The translations under genes were made by a program, and so were the position numbers. Source: Butyricicoccus sp. Marseille-Q5471 (lineage in GTDB: Bacteria > Bacillota > Clostridia > Oscillospirales > Butyricicoccaceae). From it: DNA of 64,000 bases. The notes beneath the pieces were generated by a model that had not been told where the DNA came from, did no database searches, and worked only from the letters and a program-made list of their open reading frames with translations. Position 1 is the first letter of the stretch; each line of letters starts with the position of its first letter. Positions 7,880-29,558 of the stretch are shown here, piece after piece. The stretch lies in assembly GCF_951230135.1 (NCBI RefSeq), contig NZ_CATNVC010000005.1, forward strand, positions 62,001 to 126,000. The letters run 5' to 3'.

Positions 7880-8182
7880 GTTCAGCGCTCCACAAGACCG
7901 CACGCGGACGATTCGAAATCGACGCTCCAATTGCCTTTCCGCACGTCGAGCTCAAAATCGGCAAATCTGCGGCACACGATGGTTTCTGCTTAATGCTGCT
8001 CGGTTCCCCGCCTGACATGGTTCGCAGTCCTCCGTTGCGCAGTACCGGTTTCTCATCGCTCCGTGGGCGGACGCCGCATCATAACGTCGTCCCTCCCCGC
8101 CCGCATCATCCCCGCTATAGCGGATTGCGGGTTCAGGGCACCGCTGCCTCCCCGATGTGTGCGGCCTTGTGCAGCGCTGAAC
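7880..8182 (-). ncRNA. ffs: Signal recognition particle RNA, large Gram-positive type (Alu plus S domain)
   Basis: Read on the minus strand, the 5' part has the Alu-domain core GGGGAGGCAGCGGTGCCCTG followed by ACCCGCAATCCGCT, and the S-domain helix 8 core ACCATGTCAGGCGGGGAACC then GAGCAGCATTAAG, near 8040-7990. The ends pair over a long helix (GTTCAGCGCT at the 5' end with AGCGCTGAAC at 7889-7880), giving about 303 nt. This matches the architecture of Bacillus scRNA. It partners with Ffh, encoded at 55.2 kb in this window. Exact ends are estimated from the closing helix. Confidence 0.95.
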
Positions 8183-21637: not shown

Positions 21638-22654
21638 TCAGCCTTCCATCACGCGGCCTTCGAACTCGGCGCGGCGCTTGATGTCGGCCATCACCGCGTC
21701 AAACTGCGGCAGGTCGAGCGACTGCGCGCCGTCGCACAGGGCGCAGCGCGGATTGTTGTGTGCCTCGATAATCAGGCCATCCGCACCCGCGGCAATCGCA
21801 GCGCGAGACAGCGGCTGCACCATATCGCGGCGGCCGGCAGCATGGCTGGGGTCGACGATAATCGGCAGATGGCTGAACATTTTAATCAGCGGAATCGCCG
21901 AAATGTCCAGATTGTTGCGAATCATAGACTCAAACGTGCGGATGCCGCGCTCGCAGAAAATGACATTCTGGTTGCCGCCCGCAAAAATGTACTCTGCCGC
22001 CATCAGGAACTCTTCCATGGTAGCAGACAGGCCGCGCTTGAGCAGAATCGGCTTGTTGGAGCGTCCTAGCTCCTTGAGCAGCATAAAGTTCTGCATATTG
22101 CGTGCGCCGAGCTGGATGATGTCCACATCGGCGAACAGGTCGAGGTGCTTCTCGCTCATAATCTCAGTGATGATGGGCAGACCGGTCTGGCGCTTTGCCT
22201 CGAGCAGCAGCTTAAGACCCTCGGCCTCCAGACCCTGGAACGAGTACGGCGAGGTACGGGGCTTAAATGCACCGCCGCGCAGGAAGGATGCGCCCGCACG
22301 CTTGACCGACTCGGCAACCTCGATAATCTGCTCCTCACTCTCGACCGAGCAGGGGCCTGCCATGACGTTGAAGTGACCCGCACCGATTTTGCGGCCAGCA
22401 ACTTCAATCACGGTATCATCCGGATGGAACTTGCGGTTAACGGCCTTAAACGGCTCGGAAACACGCTGCACCCGCTCGACAATCTCGTAAGCCAGCACGT
22501 CGTGCTCATCAATGCGCGAAGTATCGCCCATCAGGCCGATGATGGTGGTGTTTGCGCCTTCCGAATAGTTGATGGCAAGGCCCATATCTTCAAAGTGGCG
22601 GATCAAGCGATCAACGCGCTGTTTTTCCGGATTCTGCTTGAGAACTACGATCAT
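21638..22654 (-). CDS. aroF: 3-deoxy-7-phosphoheptulonate synthase (DAHP synthase, type I-beta)
   Basis: First enzyme of the shikimate pathway: condenses phosphoenolpyruvate and erythrose 4-phosphate. 338 residues: an N-terminal ferredoxin-like regulatory domain (about 1-68, starting MIVVLKQNPEKQ) and the TIM barrel with AGPCSVES, FKPRTSPYSFQGL, ILLKRGLSAT, FCERGIRTFE and DPSHAAGRRD (metal and substrate ligands). No other aromatic genes adjoin it, so it is a stand-alone gene; ATG at 22654 after AAAGGAG. Confidence 0.96.
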   Translation of the reverse strand: MIVVLKQNPEKQRVDRLIRHFEDMGLAINYSEGANTTIIGLMGDTSRIDEHDVLAYEIVERVQRVSEPFKAVNRKFHPDDTVIEVAGRKIGAGHFNVMAGPCSVESEEQIIEVAESVKRAGASFLRGGAFKPRTSPYSFQGLEAEGLKLLLEAKRQTGLPIITEIMSEKHLDLFADVDIIQLGARNMQNFMLLKELGRSNKPILLKRGLSATMEEFLMAAEYIFAGGNQNVIFCERGIRTFESMIRNNLDISAIPLIKMFSHLPIIVDPSHAAGRRDMVQPLSRAAIAAGADGLIIEAHNNPRCALCDGAQSLDLPQFDAVMADIKRRAEFEGRVMEG

Positions 22655-23472: not shown

Positions 23473-23605
23473 AATATACTCTCCCCACCGTCAGTTTCTG
23501 TTCTATTTTACACCCATTCGACGTTTTTTTCAAAGCCCCGCGTGTAAACTTTTTATGACCTTGTAAAAAAGCGCGTTTTCTGTGTGAAAAAGCTGTAAAA
23601 TCCCC

Positions 23606-23634
23606 TTGCATTGCGCCGTTTCCTAGGGTATAAT
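23606..23634 (+). promoter_or_regulatory. Consensus promoter of the orphan structured RNA
   Basis: TTGCAT (23606-23611), exactly 17 nt, TATAAT (23629-23634). The predicted first base is near 23641. Confidence 0.8.
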
Positions 23635-23640
23635 AAACCG

Positions 23641-24007
23641 TACATGGAGAGGCAAAGCCTTTGCCAGCAGAATTCTTTGACCGCCCCTGTTTTGAGCGGG
23701 GAGCTAAGGCCATCCGGACAGCCGGGTCAAATGCCGAAATTGGCAACTTTGTTGCCTTATTGATTGCGCCAGTGCGCAAATTTTATAAGTTGGCTGCCTA
23801 AAAGCCGTGTGCCGCAGCGCACATCACACTTGTGAAACAATCAATAAGAGTAGTAAAAGTAAATTCTTGCTATATAGACTCTTCCTCTACCATTGAAATG
23901 GCCGTTTTACCCGCGGATACCCTCGGAAAACGGCTGAGTAGGATTGCTTGGACCTCAAGTTAGATGTTCGCCGCGCGCGCCATCTGTACTTGGGGATTTT
24001 TTTATTT
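23641..24007 (+). ncRNA. Orphan structured RNA of about 365 nt ending in a terminator upstream of the polyamine operon
   Basis: Directly visible helices: GGCAAA/TTTGCC (23651-23665); TTTGACC with GGGTCAAA enclosing a multi-branch region (about 23677-23731); GGCAAC/GTTGCC (23742-23756); a 10-bp long-range helix TTATTGATTG (23757-23766) with CAATCAATAA (23838-23847) enclosing three hairpins; AAGAGT/ACTCTT; CCATT/AATGG; CCGTTTT/AAAACGG (about 23902-23934); final terminator CCTCAAGT and AGATG (23953-23966) with CATCT and ACTTGGGG (23981-23995), then a T-run. speD starts 17 nt later. It matches none of the common classes (tmRNA, RNase P, 6S, SAM, lysine, cobalamin, T-box) by their conserved cores. 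Either a stable RNA or an attenuator. Confidence 0.65.
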
Positions 24008-24023
24008 TGAAAGGGGCCTGGCA

Positions 24024-24800
24024 ATGCCGAACAAGCTCAAGCTCTACGGGTTCAACAACCTGACTAAAGCACTTTCCTTCAATATTTATGACGTGTGCTA
24101 TGCAAAAACCGAACGCGAACAGCGCGATTATATCGCCTATATCGACGAGCAGTACAACTCCGAACGACTGACCAACATCATGTTCCGCGTCACCGAAATG
24201 ATCGGTGCGCACGTGCTGCATGTGTCCAAGCAGGATTATGAGCCGCAGGGCGCATCCGTCACCTTCCTGATTGCCGAGGAGCACATGCTGCCCGCGGATG
24301 TTCAGGTGCTCGAAGCGGACACCATCGTCGCGCACCTCGACAAGAGCCACGTGACCGTGCACACCTATCCGGAGTACCATCCGGACACCTGTCTTGCGAC
24401 CTTCCGCGTCGACATCGACGTGGCAACCTGCGGCGAAATCACGCCGCTGTCCACGCTTGACTATCTGATTGGCTCGTTCGATTCGGATATCATCACGATG
24501 GACTACCGCGTGCGCGGCTTTACCCGCGACATCGAGGGCAAAAAGCTGTTTATGGATCACCATATGACTTCGATTCAGGACTTCATCGACCCCTCCACGC
24601 TTGAGCGGTACGATGCGATCGACGTCAATGTCTATCAGGCCAACCTGTTCCACACCAAAATGCTTTTAAAGGAAGTGGACCTGCAGAACTACCTGTTCAA
24701 CACGGACATTTACGAGCTGCCGCCCAAGACCCGCCTGAAAATCAACTCCGACCTGCGCAGCGAAATGATTGAGATTTTCAGCGGAAAAAACATATACTAA
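24024..24800 (+). CDS. speD: S-adenosylmethionine decarboxylase proenzyme (long, E. coli-type)
   Basis: 258 residues; makes decarboxylated SAM, the aminopropyl donor for SpeE. The self-cleavage site [14 protein letters not shown] is intact: Ser108 becomes the pyruvoyl group. Length and the [21 protein letters not shown] start (read in part) fit the long enterobacterial type rather than the short Bacillus type. ATG 24024 after AAAGGGG; the frame extends upstream but only into the RNA terminator. First gene of a tight five-gene operon. Confidence 0.95.
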
Positions 24801-24852
24801 GGAAGAAAAGGACTGTTGTCCGGCTCATTCCTTTCGAAAGGAAACCTGCCTC

Positions 24853-26313
24853 ATGGATCAATCCCGCGTGCCGATTTTGACGGCGCTCGAACAATTTAAG
24901 TCTATGCGCATCGTGCCGTTTGATGTCCCCGGACACAAACGCGGCCGCGGCAACCCCGAGCTGACCCGTTTTCTCGGCGAAGCCTGCCTTACGGTTGACG
25001 TAAACTCGATGAAGCCGCTGGACAACCTCTGTCACCCGACCACCGTCATCCGCGAGGCCGAGGAGCTGGCCGCCGATGCCTTCGGCGCACGCCACGCCTT
25101 CCTGATGGTCGGCGGCACGACCTCGTCGGTGCAGTCGATGGTGCTGTCGGTCGTCAGCCGCGGCGATGAAATCATCCTGCCGCGAAACGTGCACCGCTCG
25201 GTCATCAATGCACTGGTGCTGACCGGTGCAATTCCGGTTTACGTAAACCCCCAGATGAACGACCGGCTGGGCATTTCACTCGGCATGTCGGTTTCGGATG
25301 TCAAGGCCGCGATTGAGAAGCACCCGAACGCCAAGGCGGTGCTCGTCAACAACCCAACCTATTACGGCATCTGCTCGGACATCCGCAGCATCGTAAAGCT
25401 CGCGCATGACGCGGGCATGAAAGTGCTCGCCGACGAAGCGCACGGCACGCATTTCTATTTTGGTGATAATATGCCCTGCTCCGCCATGGCCGCAGGCGCC
25501 GATTTGGCTTCGGTTTCGATGCACAAATCGGGCGGCTCGCTGACGCAGTCAAGCTTTCTGCTGTGCGGTCAGTCGATGAACCCCGACCATGTGCGGCAGT
25601 TCATCAATCTGACGCAGACGACGAGCGGCTCGTACCTTCTGATGGTCAGCCTTGATATTTCGCGCAAAAACCTCGCCCTGCACGGCAAAGAGATTTTCCG
25701 CAAGGTGACCGACCTGACCGAATACGCCCGCGAGGAAATCAATCAGCTTGGCGACTACTACGCCTACGGGCGAGAGCTGATTAACGGCGACACCGTTTTT
25801 GACTTCGATGCGACCAAGCTTGCCGTCAACACGCTCGACCTCGGCCTTGCCGGCATCGAGGTGTACGATATTCTGCGTGATTTTTACGACATTCAGACCG
25901 AATTCGGCGATTTGGGCAACCTGCTCGCCTATGTTTCCGTCGGCGACCGTGAGCGCGATTTGGAGCGTTTGGTCGCGGCACTGTCTGACATCCGCCGCCG
26001 CTATAAACGCGACAAGGCCGAGCTGATGCGGCAGGAATACATCAATCCGCAGGTCGTCGCCGGCCCGCAGGAGGCGTTTTACGCGGAAAAGCAGTCGCTC
26101 CCGCTTGAAAACACCATTGGCCGCATCTGTGCCGAGTTTGTCATGTGCTATCCGCCCGGCATCCCGATTCTCGCGCCCGGCGAGCGCATCACACAGGATA
26201 TTCTCGATTACATCCGCTACGCCAAGGAAAAGAACTGTCTGCTGACCGGCACCGAAGATCCGTCGGTGGACACCCTGCAGGTTATCAAAGGAGTGATCAG
26301 TCCATGCATCTGA
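24853..26313 (+). CDS. Orn/Lys/Arg decarboxylase, fold type I PLP enzyme
   Basis: 486 residues of the short SpeA/YaaO-type family. PLP lysine is K225 in SVSMHKSGGSLTQSS; D194 and H197 in ADEAHGTHF hold the cofactor; DVPGHKRGRG at residues 24-33 is the family signature. Members decarboxylate arginine, lysine or ornithine, and sequence alone does not decide which. In this operon it would supply agmatine, putrescine or cadaverine. The frame is open upstream of ATG 24853, but AAAGGAAA near 24839 supports this start. Its last 10 nt overlap speE. Confidence 0.92.
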   Translation: MDQSRVPILTALEQFKSMRIVPFDVPGHKRGRGNPELTRFLGEACLTVDVNSMKPLDNLCHPTTVIREAEELAADAFGARHAFLMVGGTTSSVQSMVLSVVSRGDEIILPRNVHRSVINALVLTGAIPVYVNPQMNDRLGISLGMSVSDVKAAIEKHPNAKAVLVNNPTYYGICSDIRSIVKLAHDAGMKVLADEAHGTHFYFGDNMPCSAMAAGADLASVSMHKSGGSLTQSSFLLCGQSMNPDHVRQFINLTQTTSGSYLLMVSLDISRKNLALHGKEIFRKVTDLTEYAREEINQLGDYYAYGRELINGDTVFDFDATKLAVNTLDLGLAGIEVYDILRDFYDIQTEFGDLGNLLAYVSVGDRERDLERLVAALSDIRRRYKRDKAELMRQEYINPQVVAGPQEAFYAEKQSLPLENTIGRICAEFVMCYPPGIPILAPGERITQDILDYIRYAKEKNCLLTGTEDPSVDTLQVIKGVISPCI

Positions 26314-27164
26314 GTTTTACCGAAATGCACACGCCGACCGTCGGTCTGCAAATCGCGGTCGACCGTCAGCTTTATACCGAGCAGAGCGAGTTTCAGCGCA
26401 TTGATGTATTTGAATGCGAAGAATTCGGCCGCTTTCTGACGCTCGACGGCTACATGATGCTGACCGAGCGCGACGAATTCATCTACCACGAAATGATGGT
26501 GCACGTGCCGCTGGCTGTGCGGGGCGAGAACATCAAAAAAGTGCTCGTCATCGGCGGCGGCGACGGCGGCTGCGTGCGTGAGCTGTGCCGCTATGACCAC
26601 ATCGAGCACATCGACCTCGTTGAAATTGACGAGCGCGTGGTCAGCGTCTGCCGGGAGTATCTGCCCACAGTCGCCTGCTCGCTGTCCGACCCGCGCGTGC
26701 ATCTTTTGTTCCAGGACGGACTGAAATACATCCGCCGCGTGAGCGGAGAGTACGACCTCATCATCATCGACTCGACCGACCCCTTCGGCCCGGGCGAAGG
26801 ACTGTTCACGATGGAGTTTTACGGCAACTGCTACAAGGCGCTGACTGAGGACGGCGTTCTCGTCAACCAGCACGAAAGTCCGTTTTACAAGGACGACGCG
26901 CGCGCCTGCCAGCGGGCACACAAGAACATTGTGCACTCGTTTGAGCTTTCGCGCCTGTTTCAGGCGCATATTCCGACCTATCCGTCGGGTCACTGGCTGT
27001 TCGGCTTCTCTTCGCGCGGCATTCATCCCGTGCATGATCTAAAGGCCGACTGGTGGAATTCACTCGGCATCGAGACAAAATACTATAATACCAATCTGCA
27101 CAAGGGCGCGTTCTATCTGCCCAACTATGTTCAGAAACTTTTGGAGAAAGTGGAGGAGAATTAA
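26304..27164 (+). CDS. speE: Spermidine synthase-like aminopropyltransferase
   Basis: 286 residues. Transfers the aminopropyl group of decarboxylated SAM to a diamine or polyamine. GGGDGG (84-89), ligand VEIDERVV, and catalytic D156/D159 in IIDSTDPFGPGEGLF are intact, as is the N-terminal GRFLTLDGYMMLTERDEF. Start ATG 26304 with AAAGGAG 8 nt upstream, inside the end of the decarboxylase gene. The acceptor (putrescine, agmatine, cadaverine or spermidine) is uncertain because a second route to spermidine follows in the same operon. Confidence 0.94.
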   Translation: MHLSFTEMHTPTVGLQIAVDRQLYTEQSEFQRIDVFECEEFGRFLTLDGYMMLTERDEFIYHEMMVHVPLAVRGENIKKVLVIGGGDGGCVRELCRYDHIEHIDLVEIDERVVSVCREYLPTVACSLSDPRVHLLFQDGLKYIRRVSGEYDLIIIDSTDPFGPGEGLFTMEFYGNCYKALTEDGVLVNQHESPFYKDDARACQRAHKNIVHSFELSRLFQAHIPTYPSGHWLFGFSSRGIHPVHDLKADWWNSLGIETKYYNTNLHKGAFYLPNYVQKLLEKVEEN

Positions 27165-27166
27165 TT

Positions 27167-28426
<1,260 letters not shown>

Positions 28427-28427
28427 C

Positions 28428-29558
28428 ATGAAGTTTACCGAACTGCCCACCCCCTGTTTTTTACTGGATGAAAACAAGCTGATTCAAAACCTTGCCGTGC
28501 TGCGCGACGTGGCACAGCGCTCGGGTGCGAAGATTCTGCTCGCGCAGAAGGCCTTCTCGATGTTTTCGGTCTATCCGCTGATTGCCGAATATCTCGACGG
28601 CACCACGGCCAGCGGCCTGTTTGAGGCACGGCTCGGCAAGGAGCATTTCGGCAAGGAGACGCACGTGTTCTCCCCCGCCTATACCGAGCAGGAGTTCGGC
28701 GAGCTGCTGCAGTACGCTGACCATATTGTATTTAACTCCTTCTCCCAGTGGAAGGCTTACGGTAACTACGCCCGCATCGCCGGCAAAAGCTGCGGCCTGC
28801 GCATCAACCCCGAGTGCTCGACGCAGGACCCCGACCACGCGATGTATGATCCCTGCGGCCCAACCTCGCGCCTTGGCGTGACGCTTGAAAACTTTCAGCC
28901 TGAAATGCTAAACGGCATCGACGGCTTCCACTTCCACACCCTGTGCGAGCAGAACTCGGATGCGCTCGTGCGCACGGTTGCCGCGTTTGAAAGCAAATTC
29001 GGTGCATACATGGAAGGCATGAAGTGGCTCAACCTCGGCGGCGGCCACCATATCACGCGCGACGATTACGATGTGGAAAAGCTGGTCAGCCTGATTATCT
29101 ATCTGCGCCGCAAGTACAATGTTGAGGTTTATCTGGAACCGGGCGAGGCCGTCGTGCTTGGCGCGGGTTATTTGGTGGGAACCGTGCTGGAGATTGTGCA
29201 CAACCATGCCCACATCGCCATTCTTGACACCTCGGCCGCGTGCCATATGCCAGATGTGCTTGAGGTGCCCTACCGTCCGCCCGTGTTCCGCTCGGGTCAG
29301 CCGAATGAAAAAGCCTTTACCTATCTGCTGACCGGACGCACCTGCCTTGCGGGTGACATCATCGGCGAATACTCGTTTGACAACCGCCTGCTGGTCGGCG
29401 ATCAGGTCGTTTTTGGTGACATGGCGCTGTACACCATGGTCAAAACCAATACCTTCAACGGCATGCCGCTGCCCAATATCGCCATCCGCCGCGTGAGCGG
29501 CACGGACGAGGTTGTGCGTGCCTTCGGGTATGAAGATTTCAAAAACCGCCTGTCTTAA
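28428..29558 (+). CDS. nspC: Carboxynorspermidine/carboxyspermidine decarboxylase
   Basis: 376 residues, alanine-racemase-fold PLP enzyme. PLP lysine K41 in ILLAQKAFSMF; GFHFHTLCEQ, WLNLGGGHHITRDDYD, YLEPGEAVVLGAGYL and GRTCLAGDIIGEY are the NspC hallmarks. Removes the carboxyl group from carboxyspermidine (or carboxynorspermidine) to give the triamine. Last gene of the operon, one base after the dehydrogenase stop, and followed by a strong terminator. Confidence 0.95.
   Translation: MKFTELPTPCFLLDENKLIQNLAVLRDVAQRSGAKILLAQKAFSMFSVYPLIAEYLDGTTASGLFEARLGKEHFGKETHVFSPAYTEQEFGELLQYADHIVFNSFSQWKAYGNYARIAGKSCGLRINPECSTQDPDHAMYDPCGPTSRLGVTLENFQPEMLNGIDGFHFHTLCEQNSDALVRTVAAFESKFGAYMEGMKWLNLGGGHHITRDDYDVEKLVSLIIYLRRKYNVEVYLEPGEAVVLGAGYLVGTVLEIVHNHAHIAILDTSAACHMPDVLEVPYRPPVFRSGQPNEKAFTYLLTGRTCLAGDIIGEYSFDNRLLVGDQVVFGDMALYTMVKTNTFNGMPLPNIAIRRVSGTDEVVRAFGYEDFKNRLS

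Follow-up and report, generated by a model that had tools for sequence, protein, structure and literature searches.

A widespread leader RNA upstream of polyamine genes, a likely transcription attenuator and candidate polyamine riboswitch

Introduction

Directly upstream of the polyamine operon headed by speD in Butyricicoccus sp. Marseille-Q5471, within the 64,000-nt stretch of DNA that was analysed (the window), lies a conserved, structured leader RNA that we hold very likely to be a real and widespread cis attenuator. More specifically, we consider it probable that this RNA is a cis-acting transcription-attenuation leader, most likely functioning as a riboswitch that responds to spermidine or to a polyamine close to it. 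The search for polyamine riboswitches was a long one (PMC10853860), and the spermidine riboswitch of Salvail et al. (2023; PMC10853860) is, according to the available part of that paper, a close SAM-I aptamer variant that is terminator-based and turned OFF by spermidine, such variants being described there as rare. The validated polyamine riboswitch is, on that account, a rare SAM-I variant, whereas the leader RNA described here spans many genera and several classes. Now that the limits of the RNA, its helices and the strands proposed to switch are mapped, binding and termination tests become possible on the right construct; one trimmed to the 54 positions of Rfam family RF02440 would leave out the switch and the greater part of the RNA.

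Results and discussion

A long leader RNA around an Rfam core

All coordinates are window positions and, unless stated otherwise, refer to the plus strand. Inspection of the sequence confirmed the sigma-70-type promoter recorded in the initial annotation (TTGCAT-17-TATAAT, 23606-23634, with TTGCAT at 23606-23611, a 17-nt spacer and TATAAT at 23629-23634). The conserved leader RNA that follows occupies 23641-23882, its start being placed from the promoter and its end at the last conserved position, ACUCU. Beyond it come a linker (23883-23952), which appears unconserved by eye and whose first 37 nt show no preference for their own terminator arm, and the intrinsic terminator before speD (23953-24008), also noted initially, with its hairpin at 23953-23995 and ATTTTTTTATTTT at 23996-24008. 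The operon itself comprises speD, with AAAGGGG in front (SAM decarboxylase of the E. coli type, 24024-24800; TIGR03331, 410 bits), a gene of the Orn/Lys/Arg decarboxylase family (ORF limits 24769-26313; PF01276), speE for spermidine synthase (ORF limits 26145-27164, the domain beginning about 50 residues in), a carboxynorspermidine synthase-like gene (27167-28426; NF043000, 420 bits, below the NCBIfam cut-off of 800) and nspC for carboxynorspermidine decarboxylase (28428-29558; TIGR01047).

Folded on its own, the leader (23641-23885, ~245 nt) has a minimum free energy (MFE) of -81.4 kcal/mol, against a mean of -64.9 (sd 4.55) for shuffled sequences (z -3.62); one shuffle in 200 did as well. 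This fold, computed with no relatives, contains helices P1, P2, P2a, P4, P5, P6, P7 and P8 and lacks P2b (GGC/GCC), P3 and P9; the terminator appears in it once 23641-24008 is taken.

The initial annotation had found no class for the RNA, a claim that a covariance search of Rfam (cmscan) overturned: RF02440 (SpF59_sRNA, ldcC RNA) matches 23678-23737 with 62.6 bits (cut-off 37.2) over model positions 1-54 of 54. The leader therefore has a family, about a quarter of it being covered by the 54-position model. The window gave two matches only in this search, the other being the large SRP RNA, and between 23500 and 24100 no further Rfam family was found at E<=10, which rules out the SAM families, T-box, speF and other Rfam leaders there. 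Whereas 23678-23737 fits the whole RF02440 model above its cut-off, the conserved leader extends beyond it by a 5' strand and by ~145 nt 3' of the core. Rfam types the family as 'Gene; sRNA' and its line names no ligand; read as a free-standing RNA of model length, that type differs from what we found, namely a core inside a longer conserved RNA, and the data point instead to a cis attenuator. A possible source of the ldcC name is Weinberg et al. 2017. Novelty is limited by the pre-existing RF02440 name; among the literature matches listed, no title or abstract start concerned this RNA, which does not establish its absence from print.

Comparative evidence for the helices

Loci for the P1, duplex, terminator and gene tests were those retained by an earlier 3'-domain criterion, an 18-mer with up to 5 edits (222 of 228 loci), which is lenient (94 of 666 shuffled windows also satisfy it); a more stringent 32-mer is present in 218 of the 222. 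The loci include repeat genomes (L033/L152, L041/L078). In a MAFFT alignment of 67 of 71 loci (A1; L003, L036, L048 and L058 omitted), the core is followed by ~145 conserved nt arranged as UUAUUGAUUGAG, a hairpin, AAAUUUUAUAAGUUGG, two hairpins, ACUUGUGAAACGGUCAAUAAGAGUAGUAAAAGUA and UUGCUAUAUAGACUCU. Because RNAalifold on A1 gave 29 pairs with P4, P5 and P7 missing, the structure was assigned manually on a second alignment, A2, with 60 sequences and 36 pairs. For A2, 199 usable sequences were reduced to 89 diverse ones, of which the first 75 were taken and 15 removed by hand, mostly for long indels (L022, L027, L039, L043, L045, L053, L054, L068, L071, L086, L102, L114, L115, L116, L148). In A2, 96.0% of 2150 cells pair, compared with 33-53% when partners are slid by 1-3 columns, a count tilted toward a clean result by the removal of those 15 indel-rich sequences. 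Changes on both sides affect ten pairs, among them pairs of P5, P7 and P9, and 18 cells, versus 1.9 in shuffles (0/500); since a slide by -1 also yields 10 doubly changed pairs (15 cells), this measure alone cannot discriminate. No pair of P4 or P6 is changed on both sides among the 60 sequences of A2; in the divergent L243 the P4 strands read, by eye, GUUGAU/GUCAAC where they are elsewhere AUUGAU/GUCAAU.

P1 joins AGCAGAAUU (23666-23674) to AAUUCUUGCU (23862-23871), as seen both in the window fold and in a duplex test between the 3' end and the 32 nt that precede the core. All anchors for this test were found in 203 of the 222 loci, and across 174 unique pairs the own duplex averaged -15.15 kcal/mol, the swapped -12.26 and the shuffled -7.2 (0/5000). 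The window's own duplex was weak in the test (-7.8, in another register), and its MFE fold shows nine P1 pairs. A different P1, AGAGUC/GACUCU, was rejected: the window's genus is without the 5' AGAGUC, and AGCA/GAAUU fits there.

The RF02440 core (23678-23737) comprises P2, P2a, the P2b hairpin with its CGGAC loop and a UGCCGA tail. The loop is present as CGGAC in 221 and as RCGGAC in 220 of the 222 loci, the exceptions to the latter being the window (CCGGAC) and L068 (ACGGAU), counts inflated by the choice of 118 loci through an exact core pattern holding that loop. In L229 the P2b stem is inverted (GCCU/AGGC). At position 23714, the window is the sole locus with CCGGAC; ACGGAC or GCGGAC occurs in 220 of 222, many pre-selected by an ACGGAC pattern.

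Next comes P3 (23742-23756), a hairpin GGCAAC..GUUGCC whose halves fit their own partner best in own-versus-swapped comparison (z -13.6, n=122); the window MFE fold pairs UGCCG (23732-23736) with UGGCA (23741-23745) where the comparison favours P3. The 10-bp long-range helix of the initial annotation, here P4 (23757-23766 with 23838-23847), is in the sequence as claimed and is supported by A2 and the fold, which holds 8 of its 10 pairs. It encloses, as had been proposed, three hairpins: P5 (23765-23778) and P7 (23792-23806), both in A2 and in the fold, and P8 (23807-23822), variable in sequence yet paired according to the fold and to the fit of its halves to their own partner (z -12.2, n=134). 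A further long helix, P6, also lies inside P4 and pairs UUUUAUAAGU (23781-23790) with ACUUGUGAAA (23828-23837) in both A2 and the fold. P9 (AGAGUAGUA..UGCUAU..ACUCU, 23847-23882) is a local hairpin backed by double changes and by L016 and L030. P1 and P9 share a 3' strand and would therefore compete or form a pseudoknot. Covariation in relatives, which had been put forward as the check on these helices, is thus seen in the P1 duplex test, the P3 and P8 halves and the double changes of P5, P7 and P9, the swapping tests among these being run with relatedness among loci left in. Hairpin P5 is present in the window; in all ten same-genus relatives retrieved (L027, L032-L040) it is absent and the P4 5' strand is shorter (UUAUUGAAUUUUAUAAG).

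Distribution and the 3' domain beyond the Rfam model

Genomes with an RF02440 hit number 87 of 394 in the order, 18 of 398 in the phylum, 7 of 82 in another class and 24 of 299 in the class of a genome that BLAST assigned as Paenibacillus-like. At least 118 stretches match the exact core pattern in named genomes; among the matches listed, record titles name Faecalibacterium, Gemmiger, Agathobaculum, Blautia, Paenibacillus, Bacillus, Neobacillus, Acidaminococcus and Phascolarctobacterium, together with single MAGs labelled Spirochaetes and Synergistaceae. The same-genus relative G172 (L033, L152) has the same leader and terminator. The genome of the window holds one copy, whether searched with RF02440 or with R1, a covariance model built from 60 sequences of the conserved 3' domain.

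We used R1 for the reported count of the 3' domain because the 18-mer criterion is lenient. At E<=0.01 it matches 222 of 229 sources (the window and L002-L229), the 60 training sequences matching by construction; L229, from the class search, scores 49.6 bits. The seven sources unmatched by R1 are L088, L164, L097, L127, L134, L146 and L192. For L088 and L164 the stretch stops no more than 77 nt past the core; in L127 and L146 a related 3' part is visible by eye. L134, the MAG labelled Spirochaetes, has the core and CUUGUGAAAC, with no R1 match and no convincing P4 by eye. Within the phylum sample R1 matches 24 of 398 genomes, namely all 18 with RF02440, of which 8 had contributed to the training set, together with six others, L240 and L242-L246.

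These six loci keep the 3' part while the 5' part departs from RF02440. In L240, which precedes a decarboxylase-like gene, the 3' domain is intact and the core diverged, possibly reflecting a different specificity; L242, L243 and L244 likewise keep the 3' part behind a diverged 5' part. A short form in L245 and L246, upstream of a speD-like gene, is without the RF02440 core and P5-P7 and keeps, by eye, a P1 strand, ACUUGUGAA and P9; the P6 5' strand is missing and the 3' part retained. L249, a third genome of the L245/L246 genus, gave an R1 match. From such loci we put forward, tentatively, a second class of polyamine riboswitch, much more widely distributed than the first, in which sensing would fall mainly to the part outside Rfam (P1/P9 with CUUGUGAAAC..UCAAUAAGAGUAGUAAAAGUA) and the RF02440 core would be an accessory, lost in L245 and L246 or rebuilt in L240.

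A candidate antiterminator competes with the terminator

A scripted search found a hairpin and T-run in 211 of the 222 loci and none in eleven; L032, L034 and L040 are among the loci where the script picked a hairpin that is not at the window's position. After dropping loci for lack of a terminator, a distance over 270 or duplication, 177 of the 222 entered the terminator-arm test. CARG occurs in the 5' arm of 126 of these unique cases and in the 3' arm of 6, and CYTG shows the reverse (5' arm 3, 3' arm 123). Because a free hairpin could take either orientation, this arm bias argues for a partner outside the hairpin, with relatedness contributing too. Consistent with such a partner, the strand CAUC..ACUUG of the leader pairs better with its own terminator arm (duplex energy -12.59) than with swapped (-11.35) or shuffled (-7.87) arms (z -7.0, 0/2000, n=165), whereas five other segments (linker, P2, P3, the P4-P6 5' side and P9) gave z values from -1.6 to +1.3 against their own arm (n=165); the 3' arm control was slightly positive too (-9.25 vs -8.90, 53/5000).

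In the window, the candidate antiterminator strand is CAUCACACUUG (23822-23832), comprising the end of P8 and the start of the P6 3' strand, which can pair with the terminator 5' arm CAAGUUAGAUG (23956-23966). Comparison of loci thus supports mutually exclusive pairings that would constitute a terminator/antiterminator expression platform, as in riboswitches. When five antiterminator pairs are imposed on the window, the fold reaches -117.8 kcal/mol, 7.4 kcal/mol short of the terminated one (-125.2), so that an ON state would need to arise kinetically.

A plausible course of events is that RNA polymerase starts at ~23641 and produces the ~245-nt RNA. With polyamine plentiful, the sensor fold would be stable and hold CAUCACACUUG in P8/P6, the terminator would form and transcription would stop near 24005; with the sensor fold unstabilised, CAUCACACUUG would pair with CAAGUUAGAUG as the antiterminator, and transcription would run on into speD and the genes behind it. 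The OFF direction is suggested by this anatomy, and direct binding of a ligand is what we infer. The short form in L245 and L246, with its 3' part and no P6 5' strand, is not explained by the proposed switch.

Downstream genes and the probable ligand

Within 700 nt downstream of the 222 loci, the nearest homologue of a window-operon gene is speD in 82, the decarboxylase in 56 and the carboxynorspermidine synthase in 51; no such homologue lies there in 25, and 8 stretches are too short. Among 8 of those 25 that were scanned, 7 pass the potA cut-off (TIGR01187), and by eye 16 of the remaining 17 show a PotA-like N-terminus. Two leaders precede an M28-type peptidase rather than a polyamine gene, L045 by Pfam and L058 by eye. 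Genes of one pathway thus lie downstream of a conserved structured 5' leader (23641-23882, from the comparative data), as would be expected of a riboswitch, and sequence comparison supports the gene association, the structure and the competing pairing alike.

The same data bear on whether the RNA instead acts on its own. A trans-acting or housekeeping small RNA with its own terminator, from which readthrough into speD is incidental, would agree with the Rfam type and with the strength of the promoter and terminator; we regard it as very unlikely, given the position directly before polyamine genes across several classes and the locus-specific pairing of the RNA with the terminator arm, and a terminated leader would likewise show up as an sRNA. 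The initial annotation had offered an abundant stable RNA as one option, and this has become the weaker one, given the fit of each terminator arm to the RNA of its own locus and the almost universal presence of polyamine genes downstream; the same two observations speak against a stand-alone abundant RNA. Its other option, a structured RNA that senses polyamines or SAM and on whose readthrough the operon depends, gains comparative support for the structured RNA, for the dependence on readthrough and for a putative polyamine sensor. SAM is less likely as its ligand because the leader also precedes decarboxylase, carboxynorspermidine-synthase and importer operons.

A non-polyamine ligand for the same attenuator (SAM, dcSAM, MTA, arginine, lysine or ornithine) would accord with speD as the commonest nearest gene (82/222) and the decarboxylase as the second (56/222), but the carboxynorspermidine-synthase operons (51/222) and PotA importers (7 of 8 scanned) have spermidine or putrescine in common, not SAM, and we judge such a ligand unlikely. 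A polyamine is preferred to SAM because the common denominator of these operons is spermidine supply.

Quite unlikely, in our estimate, is an attenuator worked without a specific pocket, by a protein, by the ribosome on a leader peptide or by bulk stabilisation of the fold by polyamines. Polyamines do bind RNA generally (according to the available part of PMC10853860), and 245 nt is a great length for an RNA that would recognise a small cation; on the other side, bases outside the helices are highly conserved (CGGAC in 221/222, inflated by the exact-pattern choice of 118 loci) and no T-box or other Rfam leader matches. A reading frame across the inner spacer of P9 is argued against by that spacer's taking every length from 2 to 8 nt in the 131 of 165 loci in which it was measurable.

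The favoured polyamine riboswitch would act like the SAM-I-variant spermidine riboswitch, with which it shares terminator control and polyamine genes downstream (speE, speB, speD and ldcC there, in the available part of PMC10853860), yet would not be a member of that class: the SAM-I aptamer fold was looked for through the SAM families of Rfam, none of which matches the region at E<=10. Other leaders or candidate leaders of polyamine genes, as given in the accessible parts of the sources, are the potE motif from Veillonella and the odc1 motif from alphaproteobacteria (PMC8632094) and the speF motif from alphaproteobacteria (PMC11477304). The speF motif is set apart from the window RNA by the Rfam search of 23500-24100, in which it gave no match, and the potE and odc1 motifs by their described hosts rather than by sequence.

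Elsewhere in the window, a DAHP synthase is encoded at 21638-22654 on the minus strand, opposite to the polyamine operon, and the large bacterial SRP RNA (RF01854, 158 bits) lies at 7898-8164, also on the minus strand.
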